A stretch of DNA of 64,000 nucleotides, taken from contig NZ_VAUV01000006.1 of NCBI RefSeq assembly GCF_005780165.1, forward strand, positions 124,001 through 188,000. Reading direction: 5' to 3'. Shown piece after piece: positions 19,641 through 59,999 of the stretch. Below the pieces are notes generated by a model that made no database searches, had not been told where the DNA came from, and was given only the letters and a program-made list of their open reading frames with translations. The position numbers were made by a program, and so were the translations under genes. Position 1 is the stretch's first letter. Each line of letters begins with the position of its first letter. This DNA is from Phragmitibacter flavus (GTDB lineage Bacteria; Verrucomicrobiota; Verrucomicrobiia; Verrucomicrobiales; Verrucomicrobiaceae).

Positions 19641-19780
19641 TTCATCCTTCATCCTTCATCCTTCATCCTTCATCCTTCATCCTTCATCCTTCATCCTTCA
19701 TCCTTCATCCTTCATCCTTCATCCCTCATCCCTCATCCCTCATCCTTTAGCCTTTCGCCTTTATCCCTTATCCTTTCAAT
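19641..19780 (+). repeat. Heptanucleotide tandem array abutting a start codon
   Basis: Twelve exact TTCATCC units (19641-19724) are followed by three CTCATCC units, then TTTAGCC, TTTCGCC, TTTATCC, CTTATCC and TTTCAAT. The 7-base phase is unbroken until the ATG at 19781. Related shorter arrays precede sucD (33268-33302) and lpdA (54396-54485). The array may act as an unstructured pyrimidine-rich leader or as a length-variable phase switch; no such role is shown. Confidence 0.95.
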
Positions 19781-20563
19781 ATGACCCTTACCTTTCTCGG
19801 CACCGGCACCTCGGTTGGCATTCCGATGATCGGTTGCGACTGCGCCACCTGCACCTCCACTGATCCACGCGACCAACGCCTGCGCTCCTCCGTCTATCTT
19901 TCCACACCTGAAGCCTCATGGGTCGTCGACACCGGACCTGACTTCCGCATGCAATGCCTTCGCGAAAGAATTCGCCGTGTCGATGCCGCCCTCTACACCC
20001 ATCCGCACATGGACCACGTCACCGGCTTCGATGACCTGCGCCGCTTCTGCATTGAAGAAGACGCCTTCCTTCCCATCCATGCCGCACCCTCCTGCCTCGC
20101 CGCCCTGCAACGCATGTATGAACACGCCTTCAATGGCCAGAACCGTTATCGCGGATACCTCAAACCCCAGCCCATGCCCATTGACGGACCCTTCAACATT
20201 GGCGACACCCACGTCACTCCATTGCCCGTCAAACATGGCAAAGTTGAAACCTTCGGCTACCTCTTCACACGTCATGGACGCAAGCTCTGCGCCTACCTCA
20301 GTGACATGAAGGAACCACTGCCCGGCACGCTTGAACTCATGGAGGGAGTCGACACGCTCATCATCGATGCATTGCGCAACACGCCTCATCCCACCCACAT
20401 GAATTTTCCTGAAGCGCTCGCGTTCCGCGAAGCCGTGAAACCACGCATCACCTGGTTCACTCATCTGCAATGCGAGATCCTTCATGCACGCGCCGAAGCC
20501 TTGCTTCCTCATGATGTGCGCATCGCATATGATGGATTGAAACTTGCTTGGCCATCACCCTGA
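19781..20563 (+). CDS. MBL-fold metal-dependent hydrolase (PhnP-like)
   Basis: This is a 260-residue cytoplasmic metallo-beta-lactamase-fold protein. It begins TFLGTGTSVGIPMIGC, contains a CDCATC cysteine cluster, and has the metal motif THPHMDH with His74, His76, Asp78 and His79. Further ligands are likely in LPVKHGK and in the YLSDMKEP and THLQCE regions. The early Cys cluster and the overall layout match the PhnP group of phosphodiesterases (cyclic phosphate or nucleotide hydrolysis), but no phosphonate genes lie nearby, so the substrate is unknown. The 7-bp repeat array directly precedes the ATG. Confidence 0.85.
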   Translation: MTLTFLGTGTSVGIPMIGCDCATCTSTDPRDQRLRSSVYLSTPEASWVVDTGPDFRMQCLRERIRRVDAALYTHPHMDHVTGFDDLRRFCIEEDAFLPIHAAPSCLAALQRMYEHAFNGQNRYRGYLKPQPMPIDGPFNIGDTHVTPLPVKHGKVETFGYLFTRHGRKLCAYLSDMKEPLPGTLELMEGVDTLIIDALRNTPHPTHMNFPEALAFREAVKPRITWFTHLQCEILHARAEALLPHDVRIAYDGLKLAWPSP

Positions 20564-20716: not shown

Positions 20717-20971
20717 ATGGCTAAAAAAGCAGCAAAGAAAGTCGCCGTTAAGGCTCCTGCCAAAAAAGCAGCAGCTCCCGCTAAAAAAGCTCCTGCCAAA
20801 AAAGCAGCAGCCCCGGCCAAAAAAGCTCCTGCCAAAAAAGCAGCAGCTCCCGCTAAAAAAGCCCCTGCCAAAAAAGTAGCGGCTCCTGCGAAAAAAGCAG
20901 CAGCTCCCGCCAAAAAAGCAGCCGCTCCAGCTAAAAAGGCTCCTGCCAAAAAAGCAGCCAAGAAAAAATAA
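20717..20971 (+). CDS. Histone H1-like Lys/Ala/Pro-rich protein
   Basis: This is an 84-residue protein made almost entirely of PAKKAAA and PAKKAPAKKAA repeats, starting MAKKAAKKVAVKA and ending AAKKK. It is extremely basic, without acidic or aromatic residues, like the C-terminal tails of bacterial and eukaryotic H1-type proteins that bind and compact DNA. An AAAGGA sequence lies about 12 bases before the ATG. A strong terminator follows at 21009-21064, so it is probably a monocistronic, well expressed gene. Internal repeats make the copy number prone to change. DNA binding is inferred from composition. Confidence 0.85.
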   Translation: MAKKAAKKVAVKAPAKKAAAPAKKAPAKKAAAPAKKAPAKKAAAPAKKAPAKKVAAPAKKAAAPAKKAAAPAKKAPAKKAAKKK

Positions 20972-33267: not shown

Positions 33268-33302
33268 TTTAGCCTTTATCCCTTATCCTTTATCCTTTCA
33301 AC
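33268..33302 (+). repeat. Heptanucleotide array before sucD
   Basis: TTTAGCC, TTTATCC, CTTATCC, TTTATCC and TTTCAAC follow in exact 7-base phase and end at the base before the ATG of sucD at 33303. The last units match those before the MBL gene at 19746-19780. Confidence 0.9.
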
Positions 33303-34211
33303 ATGTCCATCCTCGTCACACCCGAAACCCGCATTCTCGTTCAAGGCATCACCGGTGACTTCGGTTCCCGCCACGCCAAAGCCTCCCTCGACTACGGCAC
33401 CCAGCTCGTCGCCGGCGTCACTCCAGGAAAAGGCGGCCAGGTCTTCGAACACGGCAGCCACAAAGTCCCCGTCTACAACACCGTCGCCGACGCCGCCAAA
33501 CAATCCGGTGCCACCGTCGCCGTCATTTTCGTCCCACCCCCCTTTGCCGCCGACGCCATCCTTGAAGGCGTCGATGCCGGACTCGACCTCGTCGTCTGCA
33601 TCACCGAAGGCATCCCCGTCAACGACATGATCCGCGTCAAATCCGCCATGCAAGGCAGCAAAACCCGCCTCATCGGCCCCAACTGCCCCGGCCTCGTCAC
33701 CCCCGGCACCGGCGAAAAATCCCACGGCGGCTGCCGCATCGGCATCGCCCCCGGCTACATCCACAAACGCGGCAACGTCGGTGTCGTCTCCCGCTCCGGC
33801 ACTCTTACTTACGAAGCCGTCTGGCAGCTCACCACCCGTGGTTATGGCCAAAGCACCTGCGTCGGTATCGGTGGCGACCCCGTCAACGGCACCAGCCATC
33901 TCGACGTCCTCAAAATGTTTAACGAAGACCCAGAGACCGAAGCCATCATTATGATTGGCGAAATCGGCGGCACCGCTGAAGTCGAAGCCGCCCGCTGGGC
34001 CAAAGACAACTGCAAAAAGCCCATCGCCGGATTCATCGCCGGAGCCACCGCACCTCCCGGACGCCGCATGGGCCACGCCGGAGCCATTGTGGGTGGTGAA
34101 GACGACACCGCCGAAGCCAAAAAGCGCATCCTCGCCGAGTGCGGCATTGCCGTCTCCGACTCCCCCGCCGACATGGCCACCACCCTCCTCAAACTCTGGG
34201 GCAAAGCCTGA
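33303..34211 (+). CDS. sucD: Succinyl-CoA ligase alpha subunit
   Basis: This is a 302-residue CoA-binding subunit that carries the phosphohistidine. It has the Rossmann opening [20 protein letters not shown], the conserved [11 protein letters not shown], and [11 protein letters not shown] with the active-site His. Together with SucC it makes ATP (or GTP) from succinyl-CoA. The 7-bp repeat leader separates it from the VOC gene by 57 bp. Two palindromes follow the stop at 34245-34289 and may end the transcript. Confidence 0.97.
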
Positions 34212-54385: not shown

Positions 54386-54395
54386 TTCTGTCAGT

Positions 54396-54485
54396 CTTTA
54401 GCCCTTCGCCTTTATCCTTTAGCCTTTTAAAAGGTCAGCCCGGTCAGTCTTTAGCCTTTATCCCTTATCCTTTATCCTTTCCCAG
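54396..54485 (+). repeat. Double heptanucleotide array between E2 and lpdA genes
   Basis: Two arrays, each opened by TCAGTCTTTAGCC, fill the spacer. The second (54450-54484) reads TTTAGCC, TTTATCC, CTTATCC, TTTATCC, TTTCCCA in 7-base phase and ends one base before the ATG of lpdA at 54486. The first is more degenerate and contains CTTTTAAAAGG. The unit order is identical to that before sucD. Confidence 0.85.
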
Positions 54486-55871
54486 ATGTCCCACGATCTC
54501 ATTGTCATTGGAGCCGGTCCCGCCGGATACGTCGCCGCCATTAAAGCCGCCCAGCTCGGTCAAAAAGTTGCCTGCATCGACAAGGAACGCGGCGGCGGCA
54601 CCTGCAACAACTGGGGCTGCATCCCCACCAAGGCCCTCCTCCACGACGCCAATCTCTACAACAACATCAAAAACCACACTGCCGCCTCTGGCATCACGGT
54701 GGAAGGCCTCTCGCACGACTGGGAAAAAATCATCAAACGCTCCCGCACCGTCTCCGAAAAAGGCTCCGCCGGTGTCGCATTCCTCTTCAAAAAGAACAAG
54801 ATCGATGACATCCGCGGCGAAGCCCGCATCGACAAAGCCGGCGTCGTCACCGTCAAAGACGCCGAAGGCAAGGAAACCGAATACCCTGCCAAAAAAATCC
54901 TCATCGCCACCGGCGTCGTCACCCGCCCCTTCCCCGACCTTCCCTTCAACGGCACCACCGTCGTCGGTTCCAAAGACGCCCTCGTCCTCAAAACCCAGCC
55001 CAAAACCGCCATCGTCATCGGTGCCGGTGCCATCGGCGTTGAATTCGCCTCCGTCTGGAACGACTTCGGCAGCAAGGTCACCATCGTCGAGATGATGCCC
55101 AACATCCTCCCGGTTGAAGACACCGAAGTCTCCCAACTCCTCGAAAAATCCCTCAAAAAGCAGGGCATCGAGATCCTCACCAATCACAAAACCGTCAAGA
55201 CCGAAGCCAACGACAAGGGCGTCAAAATCACCGTTGCCGACGACAAAGGCGCTGAAAAAGTCCTCGAAGCCGACCTCGTCCTCATCGCCATCGGCGTCCA
55301 GCCCCTCCTTCCCGGCGGCGACCTCAAGCTCGACCTCACCGACCGCGGCTATCTCAAGGTCAACGACAACTACGAAACCAGCATCCCCGGCATCTACGCC
55401 GCCGGCGACATCATCGGCCCCCCCTGGCTCGCCCACGTCGCCACCTACGAAGCCCTGCAAGCCGTCGAAGGCATGTTCACCAAACACAAGCCCAAGAAAG
55501 TCGGCATCTTCCCCGGTTGCACCTACTGCCATCCGCAAGTCGCCAGCATTGGACTCACCGAACGCGCCGCCCAGGAAAAAGGCCTGAAGTTCAAAGTCGG
55601 CAAATTCCCCTACTCCGCCAGCGGCAAAGCCCGCGCCATCGGCGAAAGCGAAGGTTTTGTGAAGCTCATCATCGGTGAACCCCACGGCGAAATCCTCGGA
55701 GCCCACCTCATCGGAGCCGAAGCCACCGAACTCCTCGCCGAACTCAGCCTCGGCATCACGCTTGAGACCACCATCGAAGAAATCGAAAACACCATCCACG
55801 CCCACCCCACCCTGAGCGAGATGATCAAAGAAGCCGCCGAAGTCGGTGCCGGCCACGCCATCCACGTCTAA
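54486..55871 (+). CDS. lpdA: Dihydrolipoyl dehydrogenase (E3)
   Basis: This is a 461-residue FAD/NAD-dependent disulfide oxidoreductase that reoxidises the lipoyl group of the E2 encoded before it. It opens VIGAGPAGYVAAIKAAQLG (FAD site). The redox disulfide lies in GGTCNNWGCIPTKAL. GAGAIGVEFASVW is the NAD site, and YAAGDIIGPPWLAH contacts FAD. The C-terminal HAHPTLSEM provides the catalytic His-Glu pair. The Trp after the first redox Cys is unusual against the common Val. Two hairpins follow at 55886-55954, the second with a T-run. Confidence 0.96.
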   Translation: MSHDLIVIGAGPAGYVAAIKAAQLGQKVACIDKERGGGTCNNWGCIPTKALLHDANLYNNIKNHTAASGITVEGLSHDWEKIIKRSRTVSEKGSAGVAFLFKKNKIDDIRGEARIDKAGVVTVKDAEGKETEYPAKKILIATGVVTRPFPDLPFNGTTVVGSKDALVLKTQPKTAIVIGAGAIGVEFASVWNDFGSKVTIVEMMPNILPVEDTEVSQLLEKSLKKQGIEILTNHKTVKTEANDKGVKITVADDKGAEKVLEADLVLIAIGVQPLLPGGDLKLDLTDRGYLKVNDNYETSIPGIYAAGDIIGPPWLAHVATYEALQAVEGMFTKHKPKKVGIFPGCTYCHPQVASIGLTERAAQEKGLKFKVGKFPYSASGKARAIGESEGFVKLIIGEPHGEILGAHLIGAEATELLAELSLGITLETTIEEIENTIHAHPTLSEMIKEAAEVGAGHAIHV

Positions 55872-59042: not shown

Positions 59043-59849
59043 CTATCTATCCGTCTCTTCATTTTCAGCCACTGCCTCTGCAATAATGAAGTGATAACCC
59101 GCATCAAACCGATCTTGGAGGCGCAGTGAACCATTCCGGGAATCCCACGTTCCCGATTCCAAGTCAGCCGACAGACGAGCAATTCCGTCACTCACTTCTT
59201 TTGGGTCCATCAAGGCAAATGACGATATGCCATTTCTGACAGCAGGACTGAGATAGCTTTCTGGCTCCGCCCATCCTGCCGCTGCAAATCGATCTTCCAA
59301 GTCACGTGGCAGCAGGAACGGAATCTCTCGCACCGTGCGACCGGTCAATAAGCGGACCTCTTCCGCTACATCTTCTAAATGGGAGAACGAAGAACCGCCC
59401 TCACGTCCAAGCGTCGGAAAGTAGTCCGCGAGCCAAAACCGGTTTAATGTCTGGGGCTGAAAACTGAAAATCACCAGCGGACCGTTGCCAATGACACGCA
59501 ATATCTCCGCCAAGGCTTTCTTCCGATCTGAAAAATGGTGCAGCGCAAGAACCATGATTGCGCCATCGGCCGAGTTCGATGGGAGTGGGATATCCTCAGC
59601 AGCTGCGGCGATCATCCTGACGCGTGGATGCAATGAACTCTGCCCACGCATGACCTCGGAGGGTTCCAGTGCGAGCACGGTGAAACCCAAATCTGCCAAT
59701 GCCCGCGAATACTTGCCCGTCCCTGCACCCACGTCCAGGATGGTGGACGAATGGGCGAGACCGAGACCTTCATCAAGTCCGCCAACGATCCGGGCATCGG
59801 CCAGTCGTGTCTTCGCGTAGTCTTTCCCAATGACGTCGTAGAGCCGCAT
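59043..59849 (-). CDS. Class I SAM-dependent methyltransferase
   Basis: The 268 residues have the SAM-binding motif ILDVGAGTGKYSRALADLG (motif I), VLALEPSE (motif II), DIPLPSNSADGAIMVLALHHFSD (motif IV region) and a later LRVIGNGPLVIFSF. This is the methyltransferase-11/25 group, which acts on small molecules; the substrate is unknown. AGGAG lies 8 bases before the ATG, an uncommonly good ribosome-binding site for this window. A 59-bp tandem duplication has copied that site and the first eight codons upstream. The gene is the downstream-most member of the cassette-like array at 59.0-63.0 kb. Confidence 0.85.
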   Translation of the reverse strand: MRLYDVIGKDYAKTRLADARIVGGLDEGLGLAHSSTILDVGAGTGKYSRALADLGFTVLALEPSEVMRGQSSLHPRVRMIAAAAEDIPLPSNSADGAIMVLALHHFSDRKKALAEILRVIGNGPLVIFSFQPQTLNRFWLADYFPTLGREGGSSFSHLEDVAEEVRLLTGRTVREIPFLLPRDLEDRFAAAGWAEPESYLSPAVRNGISSFALMDPKEVSDGIARLSADLESGTWDSRNGSLRLQDRFDAGYHFIIAEAVAENEETDR

Positions 59850-59942
59850 CTTAATTATCTCCTATTTGTCAGTCCCTTTATTTCCCCAATGGCGTCGTAG
59901 AGCCGCATCTTAATTATCTCCTATTTGTCAGTCCCTTTATTT
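59826..59942 (-). repeat. 59-bp tandem duplication with 17-codon upstream ORF
   Basis: Positions 59826-59884 and 59885-59942 are two near-identical copies, differing at one substitution (GACGTC versus GACGCC) and one base of length. Each holds AGGAGATAATTAAG and the ATG with the first codons of the methyltransferase. The outer copy therefore creates an ORF from 59908 to 59855 starting MRLYDAIG, 17 codons long. Its TAA overlaps the real ribosome-binding site. Microhomology TTGGGAAA at both borders suggests how the duplication arose. Confidence 0.9.
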
Positions 59943-59999
59943 CCCAACTACTCCCAGCTTCGGTCACTTCAAAACCAAAGCTAATTTGGAAGTTGAGCC
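59942..59999 (-). repeat. attC-like imperfect palindrome, 58 bp
   Basis: On the minus strand, GCTCAACTTCC begins 15 bp after the stop of the gene at 60014-60388, and GTAGTTGGGA closes the element. GCTCAAC fits the integron core RYYYAAC, and GTTGGGA fits GTTRRRY in six of seven positions. The arms share CAACT and AGCTT/AAGCT blocks, with unpaired bases as in attC sites. Length and position after a gene are typical of a cassette recombination site. Confidence 0.5.

Follow-up and report, generated by a model that had tools for sequence, protein, structure and literature searches.

Intergenic heptamer arrays pinned to gene edges and largely confined to one chromosome strand in a verrucomicrobial genome

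In Calothrix and further filamentous cyanobacteria, tandemly repeated heptanucleotides are known as STRR. Intergenic heptamer repeats have otherwise been noticed piecemeal, with quadruplex formation invoked for GGGNATC and control of translation for TAACTGA. Rehm et al. 2015 (PMC4692102), who also cite the tandem heptanucleotides of Calothrix, described the heptamers GGGAATC in Xanthomonas and GGGGA(C/T)T in Nostoc, for which the formation of quadruplexes was proposed. These repeats are intergenic, prefer four units and neighbor genes that are mostly metabolic or hypothetical; the 5′ edge of their G-rich strand lies near an ORF in either orientation, such that the repeat is found on the non-coding strand before a start and on the coding strand after a stop, and the Xanthomonas arrays show no leading/lagging preference (PMC4692102). 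MacGregor 2015 (PMC4679880) reported TAACTGA direct repeats, patchily distributed across phyla, in Beggiatoaceae, Cyanobacteria and Bacteroidetes, in sets of 2-6 heptamers most of which directly precede RBS-less starts and some of which overlap stops, and proposed translational control. A literature search on the unit strings of the arrays described here found no bacterial-repeat paper.

The arrays reported here were noticed in a window of 64,000 nucleotides (the whole stretch of Phragmitibacter flavus DNA that was analyzed), where an earlier note had placed runs of a 7-nt pyrimidine-rich unit, in phase, before genes for an MBL hydrolase, SucD and LpdA. Re-reading of the sequence and TRF returned exactly the coordinates and phase claimed, and the identities of the three genes were borne out by their domain content. 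The elements are the following.

19641..19773, + strand: MBL array of 19 heptamer units (sequence, TRF, unit list)
19774..19780, + strand: TTTCAAT tail, from the MBL array to the ATG (sequence)
19781..20563, + strand: MBL-fold hydrolase (Lactamase_B_2), 260 aa, start ATG at 19781 (gene call, domain match)
33268..33295, + strand: standard four-unit array of sucD, TTTAGCC TTTATCC CTTATCC TTTATCC (sequence)
33296..33302, + strand: TTTCAAC tail, from the sucD array to the ATG (sequence)
33303..34211, + strand: sucD-type succinyl-CoA ligase subunit (CoA_binding + Ligase_CoA), 302 aa, ATG start (domain match)
54390..54396, + strand: GTCAGTC, 5′ border of the first lpdA array, a degenerate unit (sequence; 5′ consensus TCAKYY)
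54397..54424, + strand: first lpdA four-unit array, TTTAGCC CTTCGCC TTTATCC TTTAGCC (sequence)
54443..54449, + strand: GTCAGTC again, 5′ border of the second lpdA array (sequence)
54450..54477, + strand: second lpdA four-unit array, TTTAGCC TTTATCC CTTATCC TTTATCC, then 8 nt to the ATG (sequence)
54486..55871, + strand: lpdA-type dihydrolipoyl dehydrogenase (Pyr_redox_2 + dimerisation domain), 461 aa (domain match)

The MBL array consists of 12 TTCATCC and 3 CTCATCC units followed by TTTAGCC TTTCGCC TTTATCC CTTATCC, and these final four units are similar to the standard four-unit array of the genome. The lpdA leader contains the whole element, border included, in two copies, since the GTCAGTC border recurs before the second array. 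Across the window, 20 matches to the 21-mer were found at ≤3 mismatches versus 0 in 100 dinucleotide shuffles, and no Rfam covariance-model match was obtained. Just 3′ of the MBL gene (20717-20971) lies an 84-aa Lys/Ala/Pro-rich ORF (AKKAPAKKAAAPAKK) resembling a histone-H1-type bacterial DNA-binding protein. A 59-bp tandem duplication at 59826-59945, the two copies of which are 98% alike, contains TTTGTCAGTCCCTTTATTTC and the TCAGTC motif also found as the border of the lpdA arrays.

The genome (G000) is a Verrucomicrobiaceae-like draft of 5.91 Mb in 44 contigs, 99.9% complete, from a family that includes members with ~8 Mb genomes. A genome-wide search for array-like strings, the check proposed in the earlier note, yielded 353 21-mer matches versus 1 for the reversed control. 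Array statistics were drawn from a 2.26-Mb sample representing 38% of this one draft genome, with genes called by a simple purpose-written codon-bias caller and arrays defined as ≥3 YTYMKCC units. Sixty-one arrays were found, 42 of them with exactly four units, 10 with three and 4 with five, the remaining sizes, up to 19, being represented once or twice each; four units are the genome-wide norm, and the 19-unit MBL array, exceptional also for its 12 identical units, is an outlier. The arrays are bordered on the 5′ side by the degenerate TCAKYY consensus and followed in 48 of 61 cases by a TTTC tail. Unit identity depends on the position in the array (chi-square p = 8e-5), the third unit usually being CTTATCC or TTCATCC and the others TTTAKCC, and similarity above chance was found between units two places apart (P < 0.0005) but not between neighbors. 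Identical haplotypes were encountered in 8 pairs versus 2.7 expected (p = 0.01), the commonest being that of the sucD array, with 4 copies in the sample. The genes downstream belong to core metabolism.

Of the 61 arrays, 57 are intergenic. For 43 of these, the gene that follows the 3′ end of the pyrimidine strand is on the same strand, and 36 arrays reach to within 12 nt of its start, ending 2-12 nt and mostly 6-10 nt before it; the start codon is ATG in 34 of these 36 cases. For the other 14, that gene is on the opposite strand, and every array lies no more than 13 nt from its stop codon, which some of the arrays supply themselves; these stop-pinned arrays turn up in convergent spacers as well as in those separating two G-rich-strand genes. 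In a smaller sample, 33 of 38 arrays in tandem spacers lie ≤10 nt from a start, compared to 17 on average and never more than 26 in 5000 random placements, and opposite-stop pinning was 13/13 versus 5/13 under random placement in the same spacers. No comparable pinning was seen on the 5′ side of the arrays in the 2.26-Mb sample. The association with start codons put forward in the earlier note is thus strong (36/43), but it is not exclusive, opposite-strand stops being equally pinned (14/14); the pattern which that note held would refute a link to translation starts, arrays equally common away from starts or in convergent spacers, is in part observed, as the stop-pinned arrays include some in convergent spacers.

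The pyrimidine strand of the arrays was the regionally C-rich strand in 55 of the 57 intergenic cases and in all 16 additional loci, almost every one of them on a contig beyond the 2.26-Mb sample. The array rate per spacer climbed with GC skew from 0.3% at low to 7.1% at high skew; arrays were present in 11% of tandem C-rich-strand spacers, 1.7% of tandem G-rich-strand spacers and ~3% elsewhere, and strong lag-7 periodicity marked 49 of 518 leaders of C-rich-strand genes versus 3 of 539 leaders of G-rich-strand genes. The two exceptions, arrays on the G-rich strand, each have an opposite-strand array at most ~1.3 kb away (G-rich-strand arrays and neighbors: G000:C7:13992, - strand, and 14148, + strand; G000:C9:262717, - strand) and are possibly local inversions. 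Regional GC skew is unusually strong on contigs C2, C6, C7 and C9, reaching ~0.35 over hundreds of kb; contig C1 has mixed and weaker skew and few arrays. From rpoB and rplB, both of which are on the strand opposite to their contigs' arrays, we infer that the C-rich, array-bearing strand is probably the lagging strand, with the caveat that rpoB and rplB are themselves C-biased. tRNAs were uninformative as leading-strand markers (3:3). In the complete relative G011, array orientation differed between chromosome halves defined from an assumed origin (8 + and 18 - versus 11 + and 5 -, p = 0.026), which weakly supports a linkage to replication.

The period of seven extends beyond one unit. Intergenic four-unit-like arrays numbered 76 at period 7 versus 2, 0, 0, 0 and 2 at periods 8 to 12, and 20 and 31 at periods 5 and 6 under a scaled threshold that lets in more chance matches. 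The period-7 arrays come from at least 10 distinct units, including, besides TTTAKCC, TTCCGAC/TTCCCAC, CTGCCCA, CTCAACT, ATCATAA and AACCAAG, and leaders with strong periodicity at other lags numbered 0-3, the harmonic 14 excepted. This suggests that the constant feature of the heptamer class is its 7-base spacing and not its sequence. In a compound array at G000:C2:253925-254036, families follow one another in succession (eight TTCCGCC, eight TTCCGAC, then TGCCCAC repeats).

The exact unit was nearly absent from 38 relatives. A relaxed unit detected arrays in 79 of 236 genomes of the class, in a search whose reversed control pattern also hits further heptamer families (CCGACTT phase) and so does not serve as a clean negative. 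The four-unit mode recurred in two other genomes (25 of 49 and 30 of 52 arrays) with units CTTNNCC and TTCATCC/CTCATCC. Six genomes of the family, from several genera, carry lag-7 arrays in their sucD leaders, with units that differ: YTTAKCC in G000, CTTNNCC in three genomes of one genus, TAACNNN in G005 and CTGANNN in G010. The G004 leader is borderline for period 7, and 7 was the only lag between 4 and 12 at which sucD leaders reached threshold. The CTGANNN heptamers directly before sucD in G010 (CTGAATA CTGACTT CTGAATA CTGATCA CTGAACT) and G004 look like the TAACTGA repeats of Beggiatoaceae. Of the lpdA leaders, only those of G000 and G014 reached the lag-7 threshold, most lpdA orthologs being devoid of an array, and the sites matching five arrays of G001, a member of the family from a different genus, carried none in G000. 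As sucD is thus the exception, conservation of arrays at orthologous positions is suggestive only. Exact TTTAKCC arrays were also found in Bacteroidota, Cyanobacteria, Deltaproteobacteria, Elusimicrobia and other genomes. Of 119 such arrays, 56 adjoin a gene edge at their 3′ side and 6 at their 5′ side; the 3′ edges are mainly opposite-strand stops (51, versus 5 starts), and the array strand showed no skew preference within 8-kb loci (66/119).

The closest known kind to which these arrays can be compared is the little-known class of bacterial intergenic heptamer repeats. With the GGGNATC class they share the 7-nt unit, the four-unit mode, the intergenic location and the polarity at gene edges. 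Their unit, GGATAAA/GGCTAAA on the purine strand, has GG tracts only, as opposed to runs of ≥3 Gs; they are, unlike the repeats of Rehm et al., pinned within ~12 nt; and they lie 55:2 on one chromosome strand, whereas the Xanthomonas arrays have no leading/lagging preference. This strand confinement is new relative to that report. Like the TAACTGA repeats, many of them (36 of the 57 intergenic arrays) are just upstream of starts in a genome where Shine-Dalgarno (SD) sequences are generally rare; unlike the TAACTGA repeats, they have YTYMKCC units, a four-unit mode, confinement to the C-rich strand and several heptamers per genome. The presence of several different tandem heptanucleotides within one genome is reminiscent of Calothrix and filamentous cyanobacteria. 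Other assignments were considered and rejected. REP/MITE-type repeats have terminal inverted repeats or a palindrome and conserved flanks, and the flanks here are conserved over at most ~7 nt; phase-variation simple repeats are homogeneous, variable in number and associated with surface or contingency genes, whereas the arrays here have mixed units, mostly four per array within the genome, and core-metabolism genes downstream; and SD-independent leaders should precede starts on both strands and occur nowhere else, as opposed to the 49/518 versus 3/539 leaders and the 14 arrays at stops.

As a pyrimidine-rich and G-poor element, the array could act as an SD-independent site for ribosome loading or standby (S1/cold-shock protein), a leader role of the kind proposed by MacGregor for TAACTGA (PMC4679880). 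The 36 of 43 arrays ending 2-12 nt before a start (ATG in 34 of 36), the unpaired state of the array RNA in the predicted fold and the rarity of SD motifs all agree with it. The earlier note was correct in that none of the three genes of the window has an SD sequence, an absence that is uninformative because SD-like tetramers are rare throughout the genome (~7% of C-rich-strand and 18% of G-rich-strand genes). The same note's standby or unstructured-leader reading accounts for the start association but neither for the stop-pinned arrays nor for the G-rich-strand starts, which almost never carry an array yet are mostly SD-less too, so that a leader role cannot be the whole rule; in other phyla, moreover, these units are mainly found after stops. 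We therefore regard it as an unlikely explanation of the arrays. A slippage-prone contingency repeat tuning expression, also suggested in that note, could fit the MBL array alone, with its 19 units of which 12 are identical. The typical array has a unit number fixed near four, mixed, position-specific units and core-metabolism genes downstream; units alike two apart and, when adjacent, no more alike than chance rule out simple unit-by-unit slippage, and tuning of this type is barely credible as a general account.

Dispersal of a short mobile element of ~42 bp, made of TCAKYY, four heptamers and TTTC and owing its strand bias to insertion at replication forks, would explain the position-specific units, the recurring haplotypes, the strand bias and the two whole elements, each with its GTCAGTC border, in the lpdA leader; haplotype sharing is also compatible with spread from a master copy. 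Against this, flank conservation stops at ~7 nt, terminal inverted repeats were not seen and many heptamer families obey the same rules, making such an element improbable. A G-quadruplex formed by the complementary strand, the explanation offered for GGGNATC, would find its four G-tracts in the four units and share the placement rule of the Xanthomonas and Nostoc repeats, the purine-strand candidates being (GGATAAA)4 and GGATAAAGGATAAGGGATAAAGGCTAAA. With RNA parameters, ViennaRNA predicted a quadruplex for the Xanthomonas, Nostoc and G001 sucD arrays but none for the two-G tracts of the present unit or of the G054 unit, and we consider this explanation very unlikely.

We put at about even the chances of the reading we prefer, namely that the arrays belong to the intergenic heptamer class and are both made and preserved in 7-nt register where genes end or begin, any role in translation being secondary. 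Period, unit number, pinning, polarity, strand and sequence lability are direct observations. Production and upkeep of the arrays would take place in the DNA itself: where coding meets spacer DNA, duplication or copying linked to replication would proceed in a register of 7 and 14 nt. The replication link would apply to this lineage; given the lack of leading/lagging preference in Xanthomonas, it does not hold unqualified for the whole class. Array length may be held short by selection or by the making process itself. Next to a same-strand gene, the array would turn into its G-poor, unstructured, SD-less 5′ leader, which may be tolerated or used for initiation and would not be the reason for the existence of the arrays. 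This analysis found no enzyme or insertion mechanism behind them. A more general proposal, which we hold to be rather doubtful, is that a cellular process measures or builds 7-nt steps where coding DNA gives way to spacer, blind to sequence, on one replication strand and for about four steps; GGGNATC, TAACTGA, TTTAKCC, TTCCGAC and CTTNNCC would all be its outputs, with sequence turning over while position and period stay, as at sucD.

In this genome the variables come apart: four units and edge pinning persist where a quadruplex is not predicted, stops are pinned like starts, the arrays keep to one chromosome strand, and unrelated heptamers share a single period. The question accordingly moves from what binds the sequence to what makes and counts 7-nt steps at the edges of genes.
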